The translations under genes and the position numbers were made by a program. The notes under the pieces were generated by a model, which was not told where the DNA came from, made no database searches, and saw only the letters and a list, made by a program, of their open reading frames with translations. Of a stretch of DNA of 64,000 bases, positions 433 through 19,716 are shown piece after piece. Where the stretch lies: the NCBI GenBank assembly GCA_029553475.1, contig JAKPKV010000191.1, forward strand, positions 1 to 64,000. The letters run 5' to 3'. Positions within the stretch are counted from its first letter, which is position 1. The number at the start of each line of letters is the position of its first letter. Source of the stretch: Armatimonadota bacterium (GTDB lineage: Bacteria > Armatimonadota > Hebobacteria > CAIYQO01).

Positions 433-1902
433 TCACACCCCGTCCCGCCGAATCTCGCGCACCAGCTCATGCCGCTGATCGTAAATGCTGATCTTGATGG
501 GCATCTGGCCGGGGAGGGCGTGGGTGGCGCAGCCGTGGCAGGGGTCATAGGCGCGGAAGGCCATCTCCACCATGTTGAGGATGCCGTCGTTCACCTCGCC
601 GGCCTTGATGAGGCCGCGGGCGGATTTGTCCACCGACATGGCGATGCGCGCGGCGTTGTTCTGGGTGGCGACGATGAGGTTGGCCCTCGTCACCACGCCC
701 TGCGCGTCCGACTGGTAGTGATGGAAGAGCGTGCCGCGCGGCGCCTCCACCACGCCGATGCCCTCGTCCGGCGTCGCGGTGGGGATGGCGCGCACGTCCG
801 GGCTGATGAGCTCCGGGTCCTCCGCCAGCTCCACCATGCGCTCGGCGGCGTAGAGCATCTCGATGAGGCGCGCCCAGTGGTTCGCCAGCGTGTGATGCAC
901 CGGCTTGCCGCCCAGCGTTTGAAAATACTCTTCGTAGGCTTCCTGCGCGCGCGGGGTGGCCATGCCGTCGGCGGCGTTGAGGCGCGCCAGCGGGGCCACC
1001 GCGTAGACGCCGCTCTCCGCGCCGTCCGCAAAGCCCTTCCAGCCGATGCCTTTCAGGTAGCAGAACTTGATGTAGCTCCACGGCTCCACGTGCTCGGCCA
1101 CGTGCCGCTGGTAATCGGCGGGGGCGAAGCGCAGATACTCGCGGCCGTCCGGCGCCACCACGCGAAGCTGCCCATCGTAAAAATTCACCTTATTGTCGCC
1201 GTCCACCATGCCCATGTAGTAGGTCTGGTGGGTGTAGGTGTCGGAGGTGATCCAGGCGACGTATTCCTCGTTTTTGAGTACCAGGTCGCGGAAGAGCTGC
1301 AGGCTGAAGAGGCCGAACTCCACCGCGTGCTTCGCGCCGGCGATGAACGCCGCCTGATCGTCCGCGGAGAGCGCCTTCGCCACCCCGCCGGGCAGGCCGA
1401 AGACGGGGTGCGCCACCTTGCCGCCGGCCCGCGAGATGAGGTCGCGCATCTGCTTGCGCAGGCCGATCACCTCCGTGCCGACTTCCAGCCCCACCTTGCC
1501 GAGCACGCCGAGGATGTTGCGCTCGGCCTTCGGCGCGTGGGGACCGACCACGAAGTCGGGGCCGCCGAGGAAGAAGAAATGCAGCGCGTGGTCTTCCACG
1601 AAGAAGGTGCTGTAAATCAGCTCGCGGACCTTCTTCGCCGCCGCCGGCGGGTCCACGTGGTACAGCGCGTCCACCGCTTTCGTCGCCGCCATGTGGTGGG
1701 CGGTGGGGCAGACGCCGCAGATGCGCGAGGTGATCTGCGGCATGTCCTCCGCCGGCCGCCCCTCGGCGAATTTTTCGAAGCCGCGCAGCTCGGGGATCTG
1801 GAAATACGCCCGCTCCACGTTGCCGCTGTCGTCGAGGAAGATGTCCACTTTGCCGTGGCCTTCCAGGCGGGTGATGGGATCAATCGTCACCTTGCTGCTC
1901 AT
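433..1902 (-). CDS. mvhA: [NiFe]-hydrogenase large subunit, MvhA-type (group 3c)
   Basis: 489 residues, the H2-activating subunit of a cytoplasmic F420-non-reducing hydrogenase. The two nickel-binding motifs are present: RICGVCPTAHH with Cys62 and Cys65, and DPCHGCATH with Cys455 and Cys458. A 28-residue tail beginning ALPGQMP follows the final His, the expected site of maturation cleavage. The chosen ATG (MSSKVTIDPITRLEGHGKVD) has an AAGGGGAG ribosome site and lies 2 bp after the mvhG stop; a longer frame upstream overlaps mvhG and is rejected. It is the sixth gene of hdrCBA-mvhDGA. Electrons would pass from the NiFe site through MvhG and MvhD to the flavin of HdrA. Assignment to group 3c rests on the MvhD and HdrA partners. 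Confidence 0.95.
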   Translation of the reverse strand: MSSKVTIDPITRLEGHGKVDIFLDDSGNVERAYFQIPELRGFEKFAEGRPAEDMPQITSRICGVCPTAHHMAATKAVDALYHVDPPAAAKKVRELIYSTFFVEDHALHFFFLGGPDFVVGPHAPKAERNILGVLGKVGLEVGTEVIGLRKQMRDLISRAGGKVAHPVFGLPGGVAKALSADDQAAFIAGAKHAVEFGLFSLQLFRDLVLKNEEYVAWITSDTYTHQTYYMGMVDGDNKVNFYDGQLRVVAPDGREYLRFAPADYQRHVAEHVEPWSYIKFCYLKGIGWKGFADGAESGVYAVAPLARLNAADGMATPRAQEAYEEYFQTLGGKPVHHTLANHWARLIEMLYAAERMVELAEDPELISPDVRAIPTATPDEGIGVVEAPRGTLFHHYQSDAQGVVTRANLIVATQNNAARIAMSVDKSARGLIKAGEVNDGILNMVEMAFRAYDPCHGCATHALPGQMPIKISIYDQRHELVREIRRDGV

Positions 1903-1904
1903 CG

Positions 1905-2870
1905 TCAGCTCCCCTTCTTCGCGTACAACAGCGACGCCGGCAGGCTGTAGCGGTAAAACGCCCCCGCCGGGTCGGGCACCTCGGCCAGCCCGACGGCGAT
2001 GCTGGCCTCGTCGGTGGCCTCCAGCACGGACGCGGCGGCGGAGAGGGCGTTCGTCCCGAGATCCTTCGTGCCCTCCAGCGGTCCGCCGCAGCCGGTGCAG
2101 GGCATGTTGCCGGTGATGCACGGCGCGTCGCAGCCGGCGCGGGTGCTCGGCCCCAGGCAGAGCAGCCCCTGCGCCAACAGGCACAGCGCCGGGTCGGCGA
2201 TAATCTGGTGCGGGCGCTTGAACGCGGTGAAGTCCAGCTTCTCCGGCTTGGAGTCCTTGCGCGGGCACTCGCTGCAGAGCGCGATCTCCGGCGCGAGGAT
2301 GCTCCCCTTCGGCGGCAGCGTCCCCTCCAGGATAGCGCCCAGCGCGCCGGTGATGAGCTTCACCGGCGGCGGGCAGCCGGGCAGGTAGTACTCCACCGGG
2401 ATGACCTGGTCGAGCTTCTTCACCGTCTCGTGCAGCTCCGGCAGCGTCACGGTGCCTTCCGGCGCGGCGTATTCCGTCTGCGGGCGCATCCCCTCCGGGT
2501 TGACGGTGGCGAAGGCGGCGTCGTACGCCGCCGCCAGCACGCCCTCGCGGGAGTAGAGATTCGCCAGCCCGGGGATGCCGCCGGTATGCGCGCAGCTCCC
2601 GAAGGCGACGATGAGCCCGGCCTTGCGGCGCAGCAGCTCGGCCATCTCCAACTGCTCAGAGGTGCGCACCGCGCCGTTCACGAAACAGACCGCCATCTCG
2701 CCGTCGGCCATCGCCTCCACGTCCGCGCGCTTGAAATCCATCGCGCAGGGCCAGAAGACGATGTCCACCGCCGCCACCACGCCCAGGATATCCGCGGCCA
2801 AGTCCACGATCGCTTCCTCGCAGCCGCCGCAGGAGGCGCACCAGTAAAATCCGACTTTCGGTTTGCTCAT
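1905..2870 (-). CDS. mvhG: Hydrogenase small (iron-sulfur) subunit, MvhG-type
   Basis: 321 residues, starting MSKPKVGFYWCASCGGCEEA. The CxxCxGCE motif (Cys11, Cys14, Cys17), GSCAHTGGIPGLAN and PGCPPP are the hallmarks of [NiFe]-hydrogenase small subunits. Further cysteines in CSECPR, CLLAQGLLCLGPSTRAGC and CTGCGGPLEG should hold the remaining 4Fe-4S clusters. There is no Tat signal, so the enzyme is cytoplasmic. It lies 10 bp after mvhD and 2 bp before mvhA. The role is electron relay from the NiFe site to MvhD; family knowledge from methanogen MvhADG applies. Confidence 0.95.
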   Translation of the reverse strand: MSKPKVGFYWCASCGGCEEAIVDLAADILGVVAAVDIVFWPCAMDFKRADVEAMADGEMAVCFVNGAVRTSEQLEMAELLRRKAGLIVAFGSCAHTGGIPGLANLYSREGVLAAAYDAAFATVNPEGMRPQTEYAAPEGTVTLPELHETVKKLDQVIPVEYYLPGCPPPVKLITGALGAILEGTLPPKGSILAPEIALCSECPRKDSKPEKLDFTAFKRPHQIIADPALCLLAQGLLCLGPSTRAGCDAPCITGNMPCTGCGGPLEGTKDLGTNALSAAASVLEATDEASIAVGLAEVPDPAGAFYRYSLPASLLYAKKGS

Positions 2871-2880
2871 GATGATCTCC

Positions 2881-3348
2881 TCACTCGGCGCAGCACGGCG
2901 GCACGGCCGCCGCCTCCCCGTGCGGCCGCGGGATAGCGGTCAACCCCAGCGGTCCGAGGGCGCGCACCTGCGCCACCATCTCGTTGATGACGCGCTGCAC
3001 CTTGTCGCCCTCCGAGGCGGCGATCCACTCCAGGCGCACGCGCTCGTCCTCGATGCCCAGCTGCCCCAGCAGGCGCTTCAGCAGCGTGAAGCGGCGCAGC
3101 GCCTTGTGGTTGCCCACCTGGTAGTGGCAGTCGCCGGGATGGCAGCCGCCAATCAGCACGCCGTCCGCCCCCTGGCGCAGCGCCGCCACCACGAACTGCG
3201 GGTCGAGGCGGCCCGAGCACATCAGGCGCACCACCCGCACGTTCGCCGCGTAGCTCATGCGCGAGATGCCCGCCAGGTCGGCGGCGGTGTAGGTGCACCA
3301 GTTGCAGAAAAAGGCCACGATCCGCGGCTGAAAGGTTCCGTCAGACAT
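2881..3348 (-). CDS. mvhD: MvhD, [2Fe-2S] link between hydrogenase and HdrA
   Basis: 155 residues. The five family cysteines are present: FFCNWC (15, 18), RLMCSG (44) and GCHPGDCHY (69, 74). In methanogens MvhD binds one [2Fe-2S] cluster and physically joins the hydrogenase to HdrA. The start is MSDGTFQPRIVAFFCNWC: its ATG overlaps the hdrA stop by 8 bp, implying translational coupling. The next in-frame start upstream lies deep inside hdrA. An extra Cys-Cys pair is found close to the C-terminus. Coupling to hdrA supports a fixed Hdr-Mvh complex rather than independent enzymes. Confidence 0.93.
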   Translation of the reverse strand: MSDGTFQPRIVAFFCNWCTYTAADLAGISRMSYAANVRVVRLMCSGRLDPQFVVAALRQGADGVLIGGCHPGDCHYQVGNHKALRRFTLLKRLLGQLGIEDERVRLEWIAASEGDKVQRVINEMVAQVRALGPLGLTAIPRPHGEAAAVPPCCAE

Positions 3349-5344
3349 AACTGAGCACCCCCGCAATCTCATCGAAAATCTGGTCGTCGGTGAACAGGTG
3401 CTGCTGCGCCGCGGCGGACGGGCAGGCCGCCACGCAGGTGCCGCAGCCCTTGCAGAGCGCCTCGTTCACCCGCGCCACCCGCGCGTCGGCGATGAAGCTG
3501 ATGGCGCTGTACGGGCACATGGCGATGCAGGTCTTGCAGCCGGAGCAGCGCTCCTCGTCAATGAAGGCGGTGTTCGGCTCCAGCTCCACGTAGCCTTTGT
3601 CAATGAGCGCCATCGCCTCCGCCGCCGCCGCGCCGGCCTGTGCCACCGTGTCCGGGATGTCTTTCGGCCCCTGGCAGGCGCCGGCGAGGAACACGCCGTC
3701 GGTGAAGGTGGAGACGGGCGCGAGTTTCGGATGCCGCTCCAGGAACCACCCCTCGTGGCTGCAGGAGATATTGAAGAGGCGGCGCACCTCGCCGGCGTCG
3801 GCCTGCGCTTCCAGGCCCACCGAGAGCACCACCATGTCCACCGGGATGCGCCGCACCGCGCCGATGAGGGTGTCCTCCGCGCGGATGACCAGCTTGCCCT
3901 CCTCGTCCGGGGTCATCGTCCAGTCCGTCACCTCGGCGGCGCGCCCACGGATGAAGTGCACGCCTTCCTCCAGCAGCTTGTCGTAAAACTCCTCGTAACC
4001 CTTGCCCGGCGTGCGCATGTCAATGTAGAAGTTGTAGATTTCCGCGCCGGTGCGCTCTTTCACCAGGTGGGCCAGCTTGAGGGAATACATACAGCAGACG
4101 CGCGAGCAATACTTGTTCGTCGCGTGGTCGCGGCTGCCCACGCAGTGGATGATGCCCACCGCCTTCGGCACGCGGCCGTCGCGCAGGGTGATCTCGCCGC
4201 CGGTGGGGCCGGAGGCGTTCACCAGCCGCTCTACCTCCAGGCTGGTGTAGACGCCGGGATACTGGCCGTAGCCGTATTCGGGGACGCGCTCCGCGTCGAA
4301 GGGTTGGAAGCCGGTGGCGACGACGATGGCGCCCACCTCGATCTCGACGAGCTCGTCCCGCTGGTCGAAATCAATGGCGTCGCGCTCGCAGGCGGCCTTG
4401 CACGCTTGCTTGCACTTGCCGGTCTTGAAGTGGAGGCACGTCGCGGGGTCAATGAGCACCACCGAGGGCGTGGCCTGCGGGAAGGGCATGTAGACGGGCT
4501 TGCGCTTCGCCAGGCCGTAGTTGAACTCGTCGGCGAACTTGCCTTCCTTGAAGACGCAGGCTTCCACGCAGGCGTTGCAGCCCACGCAGCGGTCTTCGAT
4601 GACGTAGCGCGGCTTGCGCCGCACCGTCACGCTGAAGTTGCCCACGTAGCCGGAGACGTCCGCCACCTCGGCGTAGGTCCACAGCGTGATGTTCGGGTGC
4701 TGGCGCACCAGCGACATCTTCGGGGTGAGGATACAGGCCGCGCAGTCCAGGGTGGGGAAGGTCTTGTCGAACTTCGCCATGTGGCCGCCGATGGTCGGCT
4801 CGCGCTCCACCAGGTAGACCGTCTTGCCGGAGTCGGCCAGCGTCAGCGCCGCGTGGATGCCGGCGATGCCGCCGCCCACCACCAGCACGTCCGGCTTCAC
4901 CGCCACCCGCTGGCGCTCCAGCGCCTCGTGCCCGCCCACGCGGGACACCGCCGCGGCGACCAGCGCCCGCGATTTCTCGGTGGCGGCGGCTTTGTCCGCC
5001 GTCACCCAGCTCACGTGCTCGCGGATGTTGGCCATCTGGAAGAAAAACGGGTTGATGCCCCCCTCCGCCGCCGCCCGGCGGAAGGTGGCCTCGTGCATCA
5101 GCGGCGAGCAGGAGGCGACCACGATGCGGTTGAGCCCGTGCTCGCGGATGTCCTGCTGGATGAGCTCCTGTCCGGGGTCGGAGCACATGAACTTATAATC
5201 GCGCGCCACGACGACGCCGGGGAGCGACGCCGCGAACTGCGTGACGTCCGCCACGTCCACCTTGCCGGCGATGTTGATGCCGCAATGGCAGATATACACC
5301 CCGATGCGGACCGCGTCACCCTGGTTCGGCCCAAGCGTTGCCAT
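3341..5344 (-). CDS. hdrA: HdrA, flavin and iron-sulfur bifurcating subunit
   Basis: 667 residues. In order: N-terminal VYICHCGINIAG (Cys19, Cys21), an FAD-binding VLVVGGGIAG (residues 153-162), the LDCAACILTPKM segment (Cys201, Cys204), a ferredoxin motif CVGCNACVEAC from 253, a further flavin-binding region, and two C-terminal 4Fe-4S ferredoxin motifs, CSGCKTCIAMC (about 600) and CKGCGTCVAAC (about 631). Known HdrA carries the bifurcating FAD that splits electron pairs between ferredoxin and HdrB. The position that is selenocysteine in some methanogens is an ordinary cysteine here. The ribosome site GGAGGA precedes the ATG. The gene follows hdrB after a 121-bp gap with a palindromic element, and overlaps mvhD. 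Confidence 0.95.
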   Translation of the reverse strand: MATLGPNQGDAVRIGVYICHCGINIAGKVDVADVTQFAASLPGVVVARDYKFMCSDPGQELIQQDIREHGLNRIVVASCSPLMHEATFRRAAAEGGINPFFFQMANIREHVSWVTADKAAATEKSRALVAAAVSRVGGHEALERQRVAVKPDVLVVGGGIAGIHAALTLADSGKTVYLVEREPTIGGHMAKFDKTFPTLDCAACILTPKMSLVRQHPNITLWTYAEVADVSGYVGNFSVTVRRKPRYVIEDRCVGCNACVEACVFKEGKFADEFNYGLAKRKPVYMPFPQATPSVVLIDPATCLHFKTGKCKQACKAACERDAIDFDQRDELVEIEVGAIVVATGFQPFDAERVPEYGYGQYPGVYTSLEVERLVNASGPTGGEITLRDGRVPKAVGIIHCVGSRDHATNKYCSRVCCMYSLKLAHLVKERTGAEIYNFYIDMRTPGKGYEEFYDKLLEEGVHFIRGRAAEVTDWTMTPDEEGKLVIRAEDTLIGAVRRIPVDMVVLSVGLEAQADAGEVRRLFNISCSHEGWFLERHPKLAPVSTFTDGVFLAGACQGPKDIPDTVAQAGAAAAEAMALIDKGYVELEPNTAFIDEERCSGCKTCIAMCPYSAISFIADARVARVNEALCKGCGTCVAACPSAAAQQHLFTDDQIFDEIAGVLSYV

Positions 5345-5465: not shown

Positions 5466-6326
5466 TCACACCGCCGCCGCCAGCGGCACGAAATTGCGCT
5501 GGATGCCCAGTCGCGCCTCCGACAGGCCCAGGGCCATGCCCATGAACTGGGAGAAATACAGCACCGGCAGCCGGGACGCGCCGTAGACGGCGCTGATCTT
5601 GTCCTGATAGCACTCCAGGTTGAACTGGCACAGCGGGCAGGCGGTGGCGATGGCGTCCGCCCCGCGCTTCTTCGCCTCGCGCAGCAGGATGTAGTTCAGG
5701 CGCAGCCCGACGTCCTCGATGGTGCCGGTGAGCGTGCCGCCGCAGCAGCGCGTCTTCAGCGGCCAGTCCACCGTCTCCGCGCCCATCGCCCGCAGCACGC
5801 GGTCCATGCTCGTCGGGGCGTACTGGTCGTCGAAGGTGGCGTAGGGGCGCACCATCTGGCAGCCGTAGTAGCAGGCGACCCGGCGGCCGCGCAGCGGGGC
5901 CGTCGCCGCCGCCGCGAGCCGCTCCGTCCCCACGTCGTTGATGAGCACGTCCAGCGGGTGGCGCACCTGCACGCGCGGGCCGTAGGTGAGCTGCGCGGCC
6001 CCCAGCGCGTCGGTGATGCGCGCGCCGATCTCCGGCGCGTCGTGGATGACGTGCTGCGCCTTGCAGAGCACCAGGTAGCAGGCGCTGCACGGGGCGATCA
6101 CCTGCGCGGTCTCGCCGCCCTGCTCGCGGGCGATGGCCAGGTTGCGCGCCGCCAGCGTGAACGCCTTCACCTCGTCCACCGCCATGTAGGCGGTGGCGCC
6201 GCAGCAGTTCCAGTCCTTCACCTCCGCCCAGGGGAGCTGCAGCGCGTCGAAAACGGCGAGGAGCGATTCCTCGTAGCCGCGGCCAGTGCCTTTCAGCGAG
6301 CAGCCGGGGTAATACAGGTAGGTCAT
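5466..6326 (-). CDS. hdrB: HdrB, CCG-domain heterodisulfide reductase subunit B
   Basis: 286 residues with two copies of the cysteine-rich CCG domain: Cys9, Cys41-Cys42 and CSAC (80, 83) in the first; Cys152/Cys156, Cys194-Cys195 and CPLC (230, 233) in the second. In methanogen HdrB these bind two non-cubane clusters that reduce the CoM-S-S-CoB disulfide. The start MTYLYYPGCSLKG overlaps the hdrC stop by 4 bp (ATGA), showing coupling. No coenzyme M or B pathway is visible, so the physiological acceptor in this bacterium is unknown. Confidence 0.93.
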   Translation of the reverse strand: MTYLYYPGCSLKGTGRGYEESLLAVFDALQLPWAEVKDWNCCGATAYMAVDEVKAFTLAARNLAIAREQGGETAQVIAPCSACYLVLCKAQHVIHDAPEIGARITDALGAAQLTYGPRVQVRHPLDVLINDVGTERLAAAATAPLRGRRVACYYGCQMVRPYATFDDQYAPTSMDRVLRAMGAETVDWPLKTRCCGGTLTGTIEDVGLRLNYILLREAKKRGADAIATACPLCQFNLECYQDKISAVYGASRLPVLYFSQFMGMALGLSEARLGIQRNFVPLAAAV

Positions 6327-6943
6327 TGGGACGGCCCTCCCTTCGCCGGGGCGCCGCGGTCCACCGCGGCCATGATCGTCCGTAGGTCGCCCTTCTCCCC
6401 GCGGCGCGCCGCGATGCGCTCCTGCTTGAGGCCGATGCGCCCGGTGAGGAAGAGCCGCAGGCCCATCACCGCCTGGCCGAGCATCTTGAAGATGTTCGTC
6501 TTCAGATACATTTTGATGAGCAGCGGCAGCTCGTTGTTGCGCCCGGTGGTCAGCACGCCCTGGAAGAACTCGCGCGCCAGCACCGGCACCGGGAAGCGCT
6601 TCGGATAGACGCCGTCGCGGATGGCACGCTGCTTGAGGGCGTACATCACGTCGGTGATGCGCACCGCCTTCGGGCAGGCCACCGTGCAGGCGTAGCAGGA
6701 GGCGCACAGCCAGATGGTGTGGCTCTTCAGCACCTCGGCCTTGTAGCCGGCGCGGGTCATGGCGATGATGCGGCGCGGGGTCAGGTCCATGTACGGGCTC
6801 ACCGGGCACGCGCCGCCGCAGGTGCCGCACTGGATGCACTGAAACAACTGCTCGCCGCGCGCGGAGGCGGCAATCTCCTCGGCGAAGTGCGGATCGAGAT
6901 CGGCCTCGTAGGTGATCTTTCGCGGCATCTGCCCGTCGCTCAT
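6323..6943 (-). CDS. hdrC: HdrC, ferredoxin-type subunit
   Basis: 206 residues and the first gene of the operon. Two 4Fe-4S motifs are present: CIQCGTCGGACP (Cys36, 39, 42, 46) and CASCYACTVACP (Cys80, 83, 86, 90), the usual HdrC arrangement that wires HdrA to HdrB. A near-ideal ribosome site, AAAGGAGGT, stands 5-6 bases before the ATG. There are no transmembrane segments, which separates it from the membrane HdrE/DsrM type. The stop overlaps the hdrB start by 4 bp. Confidence 0.93.
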   Translation of the reverse strand: MSDGQMPRKITYEADLDPHFAEEIAASARGEQLFQCIQCGTCGGACPVSPYMDLTPRRIIAMTRAGYKAEVLKSHTIWLCASCYACTVACPKAVRITDVMYALKQRAIRDGVYPKRFPVPVLAREFFQGVLTTGRNNELPLLIKMYLKTNIFKMLGQAVMGLRLFLTGRIGLKQERIAARRGEKGDLRTIMAAVDRGAPAKGGPSQ

Positions 6944-7103
6944 CGGCGACCTCCTTTCCTCATCAATGCCCGGGCGCCGGGCGCGCGGAACGCGCTTGCG
7001 GGGTGCCGGGATGACCGGCGCCGGCGCCCGGCGGCCTCCCGCGCCGGCTCCCGCGTGCGCCGATCCCGGCCGCGTCCGGCGGCCGGGATCGGCGCGGCGG
7101 CTT

Positions 7104-7139
7104 TGTGAAAACGATAACGATCTTTCGCGGGTATGTCAA
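7104..7139 (-). promoter_or_regulatory. Predicted sigma70-type promoter of the hdr-mvh operon
   Basis: On the minus strand TTGACA (7139-7134) is followed after exactly 17 bases by TATCGT (7116-7111). Transcription would start near 7104, leaving a leader of about 160 nt before hdrC. A single TTGTGAA half-site lies at 7103-7109 over the presumed start, matching one half of the Rex-like operator further upstream. Confidence 0.6.
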
Positions 7140-7238
7140 GCATTTAGCGCCATTTTTCGCCAAAAAACTCGTGCGGTTTTTCGCGGAAAGCCGCCTATTT
7201 AGCTTCAAAATACCGTTTTCAAGGCGGAGAATTAAGCG

Positions 7239-7294
7239 GGAATTATTGTGAATATTTTCACAATAATTCCGCGTGCTGGTGATTTATTTCACAT
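7239..7294. promoter_or_regulatory. Rex-like redox operator pair upstream of hdr-mvh
   Basis: A 32-bp palindrome at 7239-7270 contains TTGTGAA-TATT-TTCACAA (7246-7263), an exact match to the Rex consensus TTGTGAA-N4-TTCACAA. A degenerate second site, TGGTGAT-TTAT-TTCACAT (7277-7294), has its centre 31 bp away, about three helical turns. The first site also fits the CRP/FNR-class pattern TGTGA-N6-TCACA. Rex senses NADH/NAD+ and controls hydrogenase and fermentation genes in other bacteria; that link here is inference. Confidence 0.6.
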
Positions 7295-7402
7295 GCAATT
7301 TATCGGCATTGTCGGGAATTGCCGGCGATACCAACCGTCGGCCACAAAACGACGGCACCCCCGCCGGCGATGTGGACGGGGGGGGGGGGCGGCCGACAGC
7401 CT

Positions 7403-7546
7403 GGGCGGGCGAGCGTCCTCGCGAGCCGACTCCGGGAGGAAATCTTATCCGTCGTGTCCGTCGTGCTCAAAAGTATAGTATTGCTATCGAACACGACAGA
7501 CGATCATTTCCTCCCGGAGTCGGCTCGCGAGGACGCTCGCCCGCCC
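7403..7546. repeat. Long inverted repeat, family A copy 1
   Basis: Perfect 41-bp arms (7403-7443 and 7506-7546) around a 62-nt loop; the left arm begins GGGCGGGCGAGCGTCCTCGC. Other copies are at 12250-12383 and 19346-19479. Arm differences between copies 1 and 2 occur on both strands together, so pairing is kept. The loop holds a CGTGTCCGTCGTG-like segment facing its partial complement. Confidence 0.9.
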
Positions 7547-7549
7547 GGC

Positions 7550-7703
7550 CCCCATACGCGTCACGCCAGGGTTCGCGTATCCTTCGTCCTCGTCCTCATA
7601 CTCGCCCTCCATGATGCGCGGCTCGACGGAGTCTCGCCCTCCAGGGGATGCGAGTACGAGGACGAGGACGAGACAAGCGCTGACGCGATGATGACGCGTA
7701 TGC
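7550..7703. repeat. Composite inverted repeat with GACGAGGACGAG core
   Basis: Inner arms are 7585-7604 (CGTCCTCGTCCTCATACTCG) and 7651-7670, with one mismatch. Outer arms contain CATACGCGTCA near 7552 and its complement near 7692. Related GAGTACGAGCACGAG text occurs near 35150 and 61160. Confidence 0.75.
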
Positions 7704-7814
7704 CCCAAACGTCTCGAGCGAACCGCTGAAGCAGAACAGGACATTGCCCGCGGAGCGCGAAAAGAGGGTCAGTGACTTGCTGACGCATGCTCCCGCGACG
7801 TGAGGAGGTCCATG

Positions 7815-12249: not shown

Positions 12250-12383
12250 GGGCGGGCGAGCGTCCCCGCGAGCCGACTCCGGGGGGAAGCCTTATCCGTC
12301 GTGCGCGCAAGATAGCCTATCTCACGCACACGGCATATCATCACTTCCCCCCGGAGTCGGCTCGCGGGGACGCTCGCCCGCCC
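12250..12383. repeat. Long inverted repeat, family A copy 2
   Basis: Perfect 40-bp arms (12250-12289 and 12344-12383) and a 54-nt loop. Compared with copy 1, the left arm has CCCCGCGAG for CCTCGCGAG and the right arm has the matching change. GGGGGGAAG/CTTCCCCCC replaces GGGAGGAAA/TTTCCTCCC, again keeping pairs. The loop end CGGCATATCATCACTT is the complement of the loop text in copy 3. Confidence 0.9.
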
Positions 12384-19309: not shown

Positions 19310-19716
19310 GGTGCTGTCCGAGCGGGCGAGCGTCCCCATGCGTTTGGGCGGGCGAGCGTCCCCGCGAGCCGACGCCGGGGGGAAGTGATGGTATGTCGTG
19401 ATTACGAGATAGCCCATAGGACGCACACGACTGCAATAACCTCCACCCGGCGTCGGCTCGCGAGGACGCTCGCCCGCCCATTTTCGACTCCGGGCGGAAG
19501 TGATGGTATATCGTGTCCATACGATAGGCTCTCTTGCGAGCACGGCGAATGAGATTTCCCCCCGGCATCGTCCCGATGGCTTCGGGATGATCCTCCTGCC
19601 GTCGGATGCCGCGCGCGGTGCGCGGCCGGATCCATCCCGCCATCATCTTCCGCCGAACGCGGGGGGATGCTATAATGATGTGCCCCGGCGCCCCTGGCGC
19701 CCCGGCGAGCATACCG
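19310..19716. other. 407-bp gap filled by family A repeats
   Basis: No gene. It holds a fragment of the family A phrase (19317-19340), the full copy 3 (19346-19479) and a partial inverted-loop copy (19486-19580). A TATAAT at 19671-19676 with a weak TTCCGC -35 is the likely promoter of the TPR gene. Confidence 0.7.
19346..19479. repeat. Long inverted repeat, family A copy 3
   Basis: The left arm starts GGGCGGGCGAGCGTCCCCGC at 19346 and the right arm ends at 19479, with about 37 bp paired and a few mismatches. This copy is less symmetrical than copies 1 and 2. The loop carries GAAGTGATGGTATGTCGTG, and the same loop phrase recurs in the adjoining partial copy at about 19498 (GAAGTGATGGTATATCGTG). 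Confidence 0.85.

Follow-up and report, generated by a model that had tools for sequence, protein, structure and literature searches.

Ravcheev et al. (2012) reconstructed the Rex regulon; as PMC5317091 and PMC4215793 cite this work, the consensus operator is TTGTGAANNNNTTCACAA and energy genes are repressed in a manner that responds to NADH. In Caldicellulosiruptor bescii, Rex sites with gel-shift support lie at hydG, at the FeFe Hyd hydrogenase operon, at a NiFe hydrogenase operon and at rex (PMC6391272). A Rex site was predicted 38 bp before the operon for the electron-bifurcating NAD-dependent [FeFe]-hydrogenase of Caldithrix abyssi (PMC5317091), and in Parageobacillus Rex was predicted to control cooC and the Ni-CODH, with TTGTGAA-N4-TTCACAA located 5′ of cooC (PMC13077300). 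Desulfovibrio desulfuricans HcpR1 binds TGTGA-N6-TCACA, and according to a published study the sites bound by HcpR1 and by Rex are identical (PMC5701242).

What we describe here is control of a known kind at an unusual target: a predicted Rex operator, in itself ordinary, upstream of the Hdr-Mvh genes. The window, i.e. the whole stretch of 64,000 nucleotides that was analysed, lies on contig 95 of an Armatimonadota genome that is 99.5% complete. The genes hdrC, hdrB, hdrA, mvhD, mvhG and mvhA are adjacent, in this order, on its minus strand (Table 1); judged by sequence similarity, their products are components of a heterodisulfide reductase / F420-non-reducing [NiFe]-hydrogenase complex. We know of no characterised relative of Hdr-Mvh that uses NAD(H). 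A literature search for Rex together with heterodisulfide reductase or MvhADG, with most subscription journals outside its range, found no earlier link.

Table 1. Features of the hdrCBA-mvhDGA locus (window coordinates) and the two Rex-family genes of the genome
Feature	Location	Strand	Basis or remark
Main Rex-type operator, TTGTGAATATTTTCACAA	7246–7263	.	Exact consensus, 0 mismatches to TTGTGAA-N4-TTCACAA
Perfect AT-rich palindrome, 32 bp (14+4+14), operator inside	7239–7270	.	Inverted-repeat analysis
Second, weaker operator, TGGTGATTTATTTCACAT (ATGTGAAATAAATCACCA in operon sense)	7277–7294	.	3 mismatches
Half-site, TTGTGAAAA (TTTTCACAA on minus strand)	7103–7111	-	Over predicted transcription start
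Sigma-70-type promoter, TTGACA-N17-TATCGT	7111–7139	-	Promoter search; expected start near 7104
hdrC	6323–6943	-	TIGR03290, E 1.5e-23
hdrB	5466–6326	-	TIGR03288, E 1.7e-45; start inferred from homologous region and gene order in G001
hdrA	3341–5344	-	NF040770, E 5.1e-253
mvhD (FlpD family)	2881–3372	-	PF02662, E 2e-53
mvhG, [NiFe]-hydrogenase small subunit	1905–2870	-	NF045875, E 5e-52
mvhA, [NiFe]-hydrogenase large subunit	433–1902	-	NF041785, E 2.4e-121; start inferred from onset of homology
rex1, canonical Rex, 217 aa	Contig 151		Gene directly downstream of metF
rex2, divergent paralogue, 214 aa	L012 (contig 4), 1489–2133		Full-length Rex-family protein

The first-pass annotation had placed TTGTGAA-N4-TTCACAA in a 32-bp AT-rich palindrome within G+C-rich DNA, a weaker second site about three helical turns away and a half-site over the predicted start, and we recovered all of these features. 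The arms of the palindrome occupy 7239–7252 and 7257–7270 with a 4-bp loop, in a window whose G+C content is 69%. From base composition alone an exact operator match is expected ∼0.0006 times per 5.27 Mb; the pattern search of the genome (5.27 Mb; all genome-wide operator counts are from such searches) found this site as the sole exact match. Allowing up to three mismatches, the window holds five matches (0.30 in shuffles), and three of the five are grouped in the intergenic region upstream of hdrC. The centres of the main and the weaker operator are 31 bp apart, about three turns.

The promoter listed in Table 1 is the only sigma-70-like one found in 6940–7800, and the half-site covers the start expected from it. 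The main operator is situated ∼300 bp 5′ of the hdrC start codon. Relative to the predicted transcription start, the two full operators lie ∼150 and 181 bp upstream; only the half-site overlaps the start here. This distance of ∼150 bp is unusual for simple repression and mechanistically odd. Possible explanations are looping to the half-site and an unrecognised promoter near the operators.

Two other structures were observed in this region. The predicted hdrC leader (fold z-score −3.1) carries a perfect G+C-rich hairpin of 17 bp at 7057–7095, absent from the congener described below. A palindromic element of ∼145 bp, with perfect 41-bp arms at 7403–7443 and 7506–7546, occupies 7403–7546 and recurs at 12250–12383 and 19346–19480; it has at least roughly 40 genome copies with ∼73–87% identity (40 of 112 candidates were scored, and more copies are likely), and it resembles a family of MITE-type or structural repeats.

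In the congener G001, whose HdrC is 94% identical, the region upstream of hdrC keeps both 18-bp dyads, the promoter (TTGACA-N17-TATCTT) and the half-site with the same spacing; the 32-bp palindrome lacks its outer arms there. The main operator is present as a diverged copy, TTGTGAAATTTATCACGA; the second operator, ATGTGAAAGTATTCACAA, has a single mismatch and lies 32 bp from the G001 main site. The ranks of the two sites are swapped in this species, the distal dyad being nearer the consensus. The half-site is identical, and its centre is 142 bp from that of the main operator, against 143 bp in our genome.

The suggestion that a rex gene be looked for met with a clear answer: the genome has two Rex-family genes, one of them canonical, so that the objection of a missing rex gene falls. 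Rex1 matches Rex structures in the PDB over most of its length (E-values down to 9.5e-46) and scores above several NCBIfam Rex cut-offs. Its recognition region, QVRKDLSYFG, is as in Thermus Rex, and its nucleotide-binding motif is VGAGNLG; rex1 is found directly 3′ of metF in G001 as well. A third match to PF06971 (contig 159) was rejected as a DeoR/GlpR-type regulator. We do not claim autoregulation at metF-rex1, where our genome has only a 3-mismatch match and the congener none within three mismatches. A stretch TTTTTCGCAATC (L128, 10505–10522), common to both species, overlaps the predicted metF-rex1 promoter; it could perhaps be a degenerate Rex half-site.

The search for additional TTGTGAA-N4-TTCACAA sites, which the first-pass annotation had also proposed, yielded near-consensus ones. 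With up to two mismatches, sites are located 5′ of hydG, hydE, two nuoE-like genes, hcp and a gene for an Rrf2-family regulator. One of the nuoE-like genes heads an operon that continues with a nuoF-like gene and genes of a group A6 NADH-dependent [FeFe]-hydrogenase. The congener keeps the sites at hcp, hydE, a nuoE-like gene and the Rrf2 gene. Elsewhere in the Armatimonadota, sites precede hypE in two genomes and nuoA, and in G082 a site lies 23 bp 5′ of rex. Across the operator half-sites, position 7 is A in 13 of 16 in our genome and in 14 of 16 in the congener, as in the Rex consensus, although these counts are biased towards that consensus because the sites were picked with the Rex pattern. 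Where the neighbour of a 2-mismatch site has no redox role, as with GlmM (contig 131), we took the site to be a likely chance match.

In G001 a further pair of Rex-like sites lies 5′ of a cooC-cooS-nuoE/F-like-acsB-acsC operon (L248, contig 778, 2685–15045). A CooC search of the window's own genome gave no convincing match, and control of CODH/ACS as in G001 is not transferable to it.

What we observed directly are the operator sites, how they are conserved, the pattern of the regulon and that rex is present. By this comparison of genomes the operator site is real, since related genomes keep it and have similar sites at other hydrogen-metabolism genes.

We extended the comparison to HdrC loci across phyla, scoring a site with up to two mismatches within 500 bp upstream and using the reversed pattern as control. 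Fourteen of the 80 loci have a site, versus 0/80 for the reversed pattern. In the main, the 14 site-bearing loci are from records under the titles Zixiibacteriota, Planctomycetota, Chloroflexota, Bacteroidetes, Verrucomicrobia and Chthonomonadales, the last of which belongs to Armatimonadota. The order hdrCBA-mvhDGA was confirmed for the majority of these loci as far as each one extends (in L085, L095 and L100 for hdrC and hdrB only). Many lineages lack an hdrC site; one of them is g14, an Armatimonadota genus in whose tested members Rex and several CRP/FNR-like matches are present. Two genomes (G107 and G071) have neither Rex nor the site. Upstream of hdrC in two other Armatimonadota (L039, 1339–1356, and L045, 1164–1181) there are similar repeats, TTGTGCGCAATGACACAA and TTGTGCGCAGCGACACAA, possibly a different putative operator. 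In three Armatimonadota the centre of the predicted operator is at +12, +34 and +40 from the start, and at −27 in a verrucomicrobial locus; in these four other genomes the operator thus overlaps the predicted promoter or lies just downstream of it and therefore fits a repressor.

The operator 18-mer also satisfies TGTGA-N6-TCACA, the CRP/FNR consensus, and the first-pass annotation had allowed for a regulator of this class. The palindrome would then be the site of the single CRP/FNR protein of the genome (contig 71), an HcpR-like regulator of nitrosative or anaerobic metabolism. The match to the consensus is exact, the outer CRP-like contact positions of the protein are R and R (with D replacing E), and hcp, which HcpR-type regulators govern in sulfate reducers (PMC5701242), has a site. 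A CRP/FNR protein is, however, not found in every genome with the site: six genomes (G048, G155, G057, G151, G159 and G161) combine the hdrC site with one Rex, and in none of them did we find a protein that joins a CRP-type HTH to a cNMP-binding domain; in G048 and G155 the latter domain is absent altogether. Weak PF13545 matches in several genomes cover the model partially, mostly in longer proteins, and were counted as other HTH proteins. The predicted targets, moreover, centre on hydrogenase, maturase and NADH dehydrogenase genes, G082 has its rex autoregulatory site, and operators in relatives are predicted at positions that suit a repressor. Since the hdrC site, with one Rex, occurs in genomes that have no CRP/FNR protein, the CRP/FNR reading loses weight; in our own genome it keeps some probability because one such protein is encoded there, and we regard it as unlikely. 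Of what had been proposed, the fit to the CRP/FNR consensus and a protein that could use it thus stand, while the same site in CRP/FNR-less genomes speaks against that class. The Rex reading, in turn, draws support from the canonical rex, from the further sites at redox genes and from the hdrC sites in CRP/FNR-less genomes.

It is very improbable that the operators, while serving Rex, are bound mainly by Rex2 or by both proteins. Rex2 does keep the nucleotide-binding motif and the VRKDL core over a full-length Rex-family protein, and the congener and G002 also have two Rex genes; but its identity to Rex1 is 31%, the SYFG segment that follows RKDL is gone together with much beyond it, and most of the other genomes with an hdrC site encode just one Rex. 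As for the palindrome being a structural element (a hairpin, a terminator or the end of a mobile element) and not a protein site, a perfect 32-bp palindrome could fold into a hairpin and a high-copy palindromic repeat adjoins it, yet the terminator search called nothing at the palindrome, the congener keeps the two 18-bp dyads and not the outer arms, and matching sites recur 5′ of redox genes in many genomes. We give this last explanation hardly any credence.

The palindrome is thus, with high probability, a Rex operator, at which Rex1 probably binds and represses hdrCBA-mvhDGA at low NADH/NAD+ and from which it is released by NADH. With two Rex paralogues in the genome, Rex1 is the presumed binder. 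At low NADH/NAD+, two Rex1 dimers would occupy the main and the weaker operator on the same face of the helix, and the operon would be repressed, the half-site at the start point perhaps contributing. As NADH builds up, Rex1 would be released and the H2-linked Hdr-Mvh complex made, together with the NADH-dependent [FeFe]-hydrogenase, the maturases HydE and HydG, and Hcp. Binding by Rex1, repression, the response to NADH and any DNA loop that might connect the upstream operators to the start point are what we infer for this locus, repression and release by analogy with the Rex family.

This is sequence-based evidence that, in an uncultured lineage of Armatimonadota, the NADH sensor Rex governs [FeFe] hydrogenase genes as well as the [NiFe] genes for Hdr-Mvh, and it points to Hdr-Mvh synthesis being responsive to the NADH pool. 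For organisms that escape cultivation it supplies a regulon open to testing, and genomes without CRP/FNR make the Rex and CRP/FNR readings of a common palindrome separable. More tentatively, and with some doubt on our part, Rex control of the H2-dependent electron-bifurcating Hdr-Mvh might be widespread across several bacterial phyla, tying the complex to the NADH pool, with this genus having a tandem pair of upstream operators and a start-point half-site, possibly joined in a DNA loop.

With the regulon of Ravcheev et al. (2012), as far as it is cited, the system predicted here has in common the consensus and the repression of energy genes. HcpR1 belongs to the CRP/FNR family; our palindrome fits its consensus, yet the same site occurs in CRP/FNR-less genomes. 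The cooC site of Parageobacillus (PMC13077300) resembles the two near-matches 5′ of cooC in the congener, whose cooC operon, unlike that of Parageobacillus, also has CODH/ACS genes. In Caldithrix abyssi rex is inside the operon and the target is an [FeFe]-hydrogenase (PMC5317091), whereas here the target is the Hdr-Mvh module. Caldicellulosiruptor bescii (PMC6391272) resembles our genome in having Rex sites at hydG, at an [FeFe]-hydrogenase operon and at a NiFe hydrogenase operon; it differs in autoregulation of rex, of which none is evident in our genome, and in its NiFe target, which is the Ech system, while that of the Armatimonadota host is Hdr-Mvh.
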